Positions 53,762 to 54,284 of a DNA stretch of 64,000 nt are shown piece by piece. How positions within the stretch are numbered: the stretch's first letter is position 1; each line of letters begins with the position of its first letter. The notes under the pieces are model-generated. The model saw only the letters and a list, made by a program, of their open reading frames with translations. It was not told the DNA's origin and did not search any database. The DNA comes from Acidimicrobiales bacterium (GTDB taxonomy: Bacteria; Actinomycetota; Acidimicrobiia; Acidimicrobiales; GCA-2861595): assembly GCA_036262515.1 (NCBI GenBank), contig DATAIT010000106.1, forward strand, positions 1-64,000, read 5' to 3'. Made by a program: the position numbers and the translations under genes.

Positions 53762-53995
53762 TCAGATGACCCGGCAGCGGCGGCACGCCCGATAGCCGCG
53801 ATTGGCGGCCTCGACCGGCGTGTCGGGCCCGAACGTGGCCGCCTTGCCGGACTCGACCACCTCGTCGATGCGACATCCGGGGACGGCGGCATCGAGGTCG
53901 TGCACGACCATCGTGCGCTTGTCGCCGAGCCAGCGGACGGATGCGAAGCGAAGGGGGCGGGAGGCCCTCACGCCCGGCGACTGCGACCCGGCCAT
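53762..53995 (-). CDS. Small Cys-containing protein, possible metal-binding
   Basis: 77 residues from ATG at 53995. A basic N-terminus, then VHDLDAAVPGCRIDEVVESGKAATFGPDTPVEAANRGYRACRRCRVI. The terminal ACRRC and an internal Cys suggest metal binding; the AANRGYRACRRC end resembles Ada-type metal-binding tails. No family recognised. A shorter start at ATG 53911 is possible. Transcribed away from the structured intergenic region at 54141-54231. Confidence 0.55.
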   Translation of the reverse strand: MAGSQSPGVRASRPLRFASVRWLGDKRTMVVHDLDAAVPGCRIDEVVESGKAATFGPDTPVEAANRGYRACRRCRVI

Positions 53996-54140
53996 GCCCC
54001 GCCGGCCGGCCGTCACGCGAACGGGGGGGCGCTCGCGCACCCCCTCGTCCGGGAAGAATCGCTGGAAAGGACCCGAGTACCGGACTGCGTCGGAAGGGAC
54101 CAATCTCCGACCGGCGCCTCGAGTGGTGTCTGGCTGGGTT

Positions 54141-54231
54141 TCGCCGGGTGGTCCAGCTGCCGCGTCAGCGGCCAGCCACCTCCAGGGTCCCAAAACGTTG
54201 ACTGTGCAGTTGGACCACCTCCTTTCTCTGG
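54141..54231 (+). ncRNA. Candidate structured RNA with 16S 3'-end-like (anti-SD) tail
   Basis: In the 289-bp gap 53996-54284. GGTGGTCCAGCTGC (54147-54160) pairs with GCAGTTGGACCACC (54206-54219) over 14 bp. In the + strand RNA one pair is G-U, in the minus RNA it is an A-C mismatch. The 23 nt at 54205-54227 match the universal 16S rRNA 3' end at 20 positions, all three differences being transitions, and include CACCTCCTTTCT exactly. Read on the minus strand it is AGAAAGGAGGTGG, an extreme Shine-Dalgarno before a 17-codon ORF. Whether it is a regulatory RNA, a leader or chance cannot be settled here. Confidence 0.35.
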
Positions 54232-54284
54232 TACCGGATATGAAACCACATCCGCACCGCAAAGTTGCGTCAAGATTCGCGCCT

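Follow-up and report, generated by a model that had tools for sequence, protein, structure and literature searches.

The region studied here, positions 54141–54231 of the 64,000-nucleotide stretch that was analyzed (the window), lies upstream of a 77-codon ORF on the minus strand (53762–53995) that has no Pfam match. A preliminary description had noted two features in it, a 14-bp stem and a near copy of the 3′ end of 16S rRNA, and had favored a + strand RNA as their source. Here, we describe the RNA to which these features belong and then assess what its reading frame and fold may mean for its function. The coordinates of all elements are collected in Table 1.

Identity and strand of the RNA

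Comparison with homologs identifies the observed feature as the 5′ end of an RNA from the minus strand that belongs to the Rfam family RF02471 (Ms_IGR-5). Rfam in E-value mode matches this family on the minus strand at 54232–54065 (34.2 bits, E 3.3e-6), and the alignment spans model positions 1–184 of 184, on the right strand and in the right order. The score falls short of the RF02471 gathering score of 45, so the assignment rests on homology to loci of the same order that pass this cut-off (L015, 56.9; L030, 49.1; L018, 46.6; L028, 45.6; L055, 45.9) rather than on the window's own score. The cut-off was exceeded on the homologous strand in four of six relatives tested. At gathering scores, Rfam models gave no match anywhere in the window, and no tRNA or tmRNA was found there.

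While the preliminary description named a lack of conservation in relatives as grounds for dismissal, the region proved to be conserved, with blastn homologs in 41 of 59 relatives. Folding against shuffled sequences gave z = -3.2 for the + strand and z = -0.2 for the minus strand (0.16 for the 3′ part of the minus strand); these scores do not settle the strand, and conservation does. Because single-sequence folding of the minus strand was uninformative, we relied on comparison among loci. The RNA was assigned to the minus strand because every conserved signal lies there: the promoter element, the start codon with its reading frame, the helices that covary, and the match to Rfam. The + strand RNA favored earlier is not supported.

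The likeness to 16S rRNA holds for this lineage. Over 54205–54227, the sequence TGCAGTTGGACCACCTCCTTTCT is three transitions apart from the 16S tail GCGGCTGGATCACCTCCTTTCT (20 of 23 positions equal); this tail was taken from 10 relatives, one of the same family, because the assembly's own 16S rRNA gene is a 5′ fragment without the 3′ end. Read on the minus strand, the apparent 16S copy is the complement of a maximal, extended Shine-Dalgarno (SD) sequence. By base pairing with the lineage tail, AGAAAGGAGGUGGUCC would form 16 contiguous pairs, one of them G·U, plus one A-U pair (16–17 in total). The motif GGATCACCTCCTTTCT occurs with two or fewer mismatches at three places in the 3.4-Mb genome, and the window site is the only one with a single mismatch. 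Among homologs, substitutions in the SD block are almost all A/G or C/U, and pairing to 16S rRNA is kept.

Table 1. Minus-strand elements of the RNA, in window coordinates
Element	Sequence	Position	Strand	Basis or remark
Putative -10 element	TTTCAT	54240..54245	-	-23 from GGAGG
Predicted transcript, ~215 nt		54018..54233	-	RF02471 match, -10 position, 3′ hairpin
Helix P0, 5′ strand	CCAG	54228..54231	-	extreme 5′ end of RNA
Extended SD	AGAAAGGAGGUGGUCC	54212..54227	-	complements whole single-stranded 16S tail
14-bp stem, SD side		54206..54219	-	beats shuffled loops mainly in acidimicrobial members
Micro-ORF	CUG CAC AGU CAA CGU UUU GGG ACC CUG GAG GUG GCU GGC CGC UGA	54165..54209	-	frame test
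Pseudoknot strand in ORF	GGGACC	54186..54191	-	codons 7-8
Helix P0, 3′ strand	CUGG	54182..54185	-	codon 9 plus G of GAG
Helix P2, 5′ strand	GGUGGCUG	54173..54180	-	codons 10-13
Helix P3, 5′ strand	CGCUG	54166..54170	-	last codon and stop codon
14-bp stem, anti-SD mimic		54147..54160	-	apical loop; partner of SD
Helix P3, 3′ strand	CGGCG	54142..54146	-	register test
Helix P2, 3′ strand	CAGACACC	54125..54132	-	one G·A mismatch in window member
3′ hairpin	UCGGA...UCCGA	54090..54110	-	GGUCCC in loop; fold, alignment, loop position of partners
Pseudoknot strand in loop	GGUCCC	54096..54101	-	loop of 3′ hairpin
Terminator-like GC hairpin		54018..54051	-	11-18 bp hairpin here in every acidimicrobial locus tested

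Predicted transcript ends and the micro-ORF

The RNA has a promoter element at a fixed position. A TANNNT motif lies 21–24 nt upstream of GGAGG in 150 of 176 loci, compared to 0–4 in the other upstream 4-nt bins, and TTTCAT is retained at this site in relatives L002–L005 and L021. From the -10 position we infer a 5′ end near 54232–54233 in the window, which places the start of the RNA at or just ahead of helix P0. At the predicted 3′ end is a hairpin; the acidimicrobial loci tested all have hairpins of 11–18 bp about 165–230 nt past the SD, with sequences that differ between loci. In the Zixibacteria and three other non-actinobacterial members, a hairpin followed by a U run stands at the 3′ end.

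Downstream of the SD, the window contains a CUG at 54209 that opens a frame of 14 codons, followed by the stop codon UGA. The preliminary description had read a 17-codon ORF from a GTG, and the relatives point instead to a start three codons later in the same frame. In our frame test, a start was AUG, GUG, UUG, CUG, AUU, or AUC located 5–14 nt past GGAGG, with an open frame from there into the conserved GAG GUG. Such a start was found in the true frame in 58 of the 59 loci identified by blastn or covariance model (1 and 1 in the other two frames), in all 80 named loci from a pattern scan (1 and 0), and in all 18 Zixibacteria loci (0 and 0). The SD core and GAGGTG were part of the scan pattern, so their conservation in the 80-locus set carries no meaning; the frame was left free, and the frame counts stand. 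SD-to-stop distances range from 51 to 61 with all three phases represented, which shows that the in-frame start is not an effect of fixed length. A short ORF that is selected to be translated is what a dual-function RNA would have.

Across homologs, UUG and AUG predominate as start codons. Acidimicrobial members mostly have CUG at spacing 8, and a few have AUG, AUU, or AUC; based on position and frame, the former, including the one in the window, appear to start at CUG, a rare start codon. All members encode GAG GUG. The N-terminal residues of the peptide vary freely, even inside one order, and T-x-E-V is the constant part.

Pairings of the coding strand and distribution of the family

Because an RNAalifold consensus of 38 acidimicrobial sequences gave only a partial structure, we tested the helices one at a time. 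Helix P0 joins nucleotides -9 to -6 with the codon preceding GAG plus its G. Over 176 sequences, 89% of its cells are paired, compared to 15–62% when the strands are slid against each other, and the 629 paired cells exceed the shuffles (mean 444, maximum 488), although shuffle tests, here and for the pseudoknot, overstate significance since many of the sequences are related. More than 10 helix types occur, including CACG/CGUG, CCAG/CUGG, CACA/UGUG, CCGA/UCGG, CUUC/GAAG, CCAA/UUGG, and CGUA/UACG. The pseudoknot links the ORF with the 3′ hairpin loop. Of 176 sequences, 134 contain a Watson-Crick 5-mer partner downstream (shuffle mean 91, maximum 105); the weaker test with one sequence per type gave 21 of 34 (shuffle mean 14, maximum 23). 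Both partners covary, and the downstream ones are located in hairpin loops, as in GGAAC/GUUCC, GUGAC/GUCAC, AGACC/GGUCU, and UCGACC/GGUCGA. The partner test detected no pseudoknot in its non-actinobacterial loci.

The other two helices involve the second half of the ORF. The P2 partner CAGnCACC of GGUGGCUG is present in nearly all homologs, but because it was picked by complementarity, only compensated changes count as independent, such as GGUGGUGA/UCACCACC in locus L194. The RF02471 model pairs the SD segment GGUGGU with GCUGCC; the SD side is invariant, so covariation cannot judge that helix, and in the fold described here GGUGGCUG pairs with CAGnCACC instead. Helix P3 has a register peak of 72% paired, against about 20–50% off the register diagonal, and is also part of the Rfam model, whose stop-codon helix (in the P3 register) and 3′ hairpin were both found in the window. 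Altogether, covarying pairings tie the ORF both to the start of the RNA and to its 3′ portion. Zixibacteria members (L198–L217) have a variable domain past the stop codon, in which an apical GUUGGG can pair with a UCCCAAC before the 3′ strand of P2, a possible extra or alternative helix.

The 14-bp stem of the preliminary description is present: as a + strand RNA, GGTGGTCCAGCTGC (54147–54160) and GCAGTTGGACCACC (54206–54219) pair at 14 of 14 positions, with one G·U that is C·A in a minus RNA. In the minus RNA, the SD finds its partner in the apical loop past P3. Because the SD side never changes, the stem is beyond the reach of covariation; its pairing is better than with shuffled loops in 78% of the acidimicrobial members, compared with 28% of the others and 4% of those of the mycobacterial type. 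The stem is therefore mainly an acidimicrobial elaboration, one that can sequester the SD.

Matches to RF02471 occur in 57 of 297 genomes of the window's phylum, 25 of them above the cut-off, and named hosts include Streptomyces, Mycobacterium, Nocardia, Amycolatopsis, Micromonospora, Cellulomonas, Nocardioides, Frankia, and Acidimicrobiales. Among the 99 genomes in the phylum of a Zixibacteria MAG, 33 match, and the 17 that do so above the gathering score put this “Actinobacteria sRNA” in a second phylum. The phylum of a Deltaproteobacteria MAG yielded matches in four of 198 genomes, all weak, and one Sumerlaeota MAG carries the family. By these model matches, the family spans at least two bacterial phyla. 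An apparent Acidobacteriota locus (L109) is of the same type as the acidimicrobial loci and probably derives from a mis-binned contig. Locus L194 (genome G442), of deltaproteobacterial type and a weak match, has the ORF VTKYPTVICEVVTS and the changed P2 strands given above, which suggests that the family reaches beyond what the model detects; L195 (G448) is also a weak match, and of the two it is L194 that was analyzed in detail. The control genomes of E. coli, B. subtilis, and C. glutamicum had no RF02471 match, viral contigs had no match to the search pattern, and plasmids had nothing beyond one 23-nt terminator-like match. A tuberculosis locus sought through neighboring genes was not found.

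Proposed mechanism and related systems

We propose, with a probability of roughly 0.55, that the locus encodes a stand-alone structured RNA of the RF02471 family that doubles as a micro-mRNA, with translation of the ORF gating the fold. The RNA would be made from its own promoter, with its 5′ end about 10 nt ahead of the SD, followed by the CUG ORF and closed by the terminator-like hairpin. Through the long SD, it may catch 30S subunits. The ORF supplies one strand each of P0, the pseudoknot, P2, and P3, so a translating ribosome would have to pull these strands from their partners; that ribosome and helices exclude each other here is an argument from geometry. The RNA would then alternate between two states, folded when free and unfolded when translated. 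In acidimicrobial members, the apical anti-SD mimic could mask the SD, and initiation would become conditional. Any control exerted by the two states would most likely act in trans or on the ribosome itself.

Apart from E-V the peptide is poorly kept, and pairing in P0 fixes the codon just ahead of E-V, which argues that what is selected is probably the act of translation, as far as a stop codon inside P3, and not the peptide. Tentatively, we extend this reading to the whole family: RF02471 may be a cross-phylum, translation-gated RNA machine in which a maximal SD docks the ribosome and one passage through an ORF of 12–14 codons unfolds a pseudoknotted core, with a peptide that hardly matters. 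Through such an RNA, the cell could sense its capacity in ribosomes or initiation, in the Acidimicrobiia also by way of non-AUG starts.

A different reading makes the peptide (~12–15 residues, ending T-x-E-V-x-x-x) the product that matters, with RNA structure only regulating its synthesis. The almost unbroken frame, the GAG GUG of every member, an SD as strong as it can be, and published passages reporting ribosome protection of the family RNA in M. abscessus and M. smegmatis (PMC4974804) are consistent with this. Against it, the residues ahead of T-x-E-V vary freely within one order, the x codon tracks P0 pairing, and E-V lies within helix P2, so that constraint on the RNA explains much of what is kept in the peptide. 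We regard a peptide-centered function as unlikely.

It is still less probable that the RNA acts as a 30S trap or decoy, in which the 16–17-bp SD duplex holds 30S subunits or 16S 3′ ends and the ORF merely frees ribosomes. SD substitutions that nearly always retain pairing with the whole tail would fit a decoy, as would an RNA that begins just ahead of its SD, but a pure decoy has no use for a reading frame, stop codon, P0, pseudoknot, or P3, and at one copy per genome it would need extreme abundance.

Equally doubtful is a role in cis, as leader or attenuator, for the 77-codon gene that follows at 53995. In 18 of 38 acidimicrobial loci, the window's among them, a same-strand 77-codon gene lies closely downstream, past a terminator-like hairpin; the relatives of the ORF in the 17 other loci have 43–77% identity. 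In the rest of the 38 loci, however, it is absent downstream, and elsewhere the adjacent gene varies with the lineage and frequently converges on the RNA, unlike the constant downstream gene expected of a cis leader. By eye from sequence, a citrate-synthase-like gene converges on the RNA in Streptomyces, a methionine-aminopeptidase-like gene follows it in Cellulomonas, and an aminodeoxychorismate-lyase-like gene lies upstream in Mycobacterium. Similar convergent genes downstream of the RNA, nitrobindin-like by eye, were seen in a Mycobacterium (L078) and an Actinomadura (L084) and are possibly a remnant of old synteny. Since neighbors differ between lineages, the RNA is probably stand-alone, with at most a local cis effect in the acidimicrobial clade. 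The earlier suggestion of a leader with a sequestered extreme SD for this gene thus survives in part: the RNA is on the minus strand and its SD can be sequestered, while that SD serves the RNA's own CUG ORF and not a GTG inside the SD, and the strong hairpin separates it from the gene.

Two further suggestions of the preliminary description did not hold up. A small RNA read from the + strand, whose anti-SD tail would titrate SD-led mRNAs, would account for the better folding of that strand, but it is very improbable, as the promoter element, start, frame, covariation, and Rfam match belong to the other strand and a + transcript would cross the conserved minus promoter. We dismiss a decayed 16S rRNA fragment or chance match, for all its 20/23 identity, as the region is conserved in relatives, the SSU rRNA model has no match in the window at the Rfam gathering score, and changes in the motif preserve pairing to 16S rRNA rather than identity with it.

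Consistent with the main reading, published passages on the family report RNA-seq support for Ms_IGR-5 in S. lividans (PMC8079986), its own transcription unit in S. avermitilis (PMC8780764), and an Ms_IGR-5/IGR-5 transcript in M. smegmatis (PMC10454040), besides the ribosome protection noted above. As transcripts are already on record for Mycobacterium smegmatis and Streptomyces lividans, these species lend themselves to deletion and probing. These passages, among which the original description is not included, make no mention of an ORF in Ms_IGR-5, and an earlier report is possible. Relative to them and to the Rfam entry, the ORF after the SD, the covarying pairings, the fixed -10 element, and the occurrence outside Actinobacteria appear to be new. 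A family filed as a non-coding RNA of one phylum thus has a reading frame that is kept almost universally, an SD of the greatest practicable length, and covarying structure built from its coding strand. If the translation-gated reading is true, it offers a simple, testable case of an ORF kept for translation rather than its peptide, and a natural set of CUG, AUU, and AUC starts under a strong SD.

The closest known relative is the RF02471 entry itself, a covariance-model family that shares P3, the 3′ hairpin, and the 5′ extended SD with the window. The entry is typed as an sRNA gene with a title limited to Actinobacteria, pairs its SD as noted above, and has no ORF, P0, pseudoknot, or P2 as described here; the window member, in turn, scores below the gathering score and has an apparent CUG start and an SD-masking apical loop. 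RF01867 (CC2171, a Caulobacter sRNA) is similar in size and in its 5′ GAAAGGAGGUGAUCC, and in each of four non-actinobacterial genomes it matches best at the Ms_IGR-5-type locus (L080, L090, L101, L126). Its scores of 14–26 bits, with 14.4 bits in the window, stay below its cut-off of 75, and its consensus has no visible GAGGUG block. While this co-location is suggestive, the shared letters are mainly those of the extended SD, so we do not claim CC2171 as a superfamily partner.

SgrS/SgrT and RNAIII/hld are structured regulatory RNAs with a translated short ORF that encodes a small protein. They share with this family the combination of structured RNA and short ORF; here, in contrast, every main helix takes one of its strands from the ORF, and conservation of the peptide seems slight. 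The actinobacterial leader-peptide attenuators, such as leuL and trpL, as presented in passages of PMC8079986, are alike in that a short 5′ ORF is present whose translation can refold the RNA before a terminator, whereas the family described here has neither a regulatory codon run nor a constant downstream gene.
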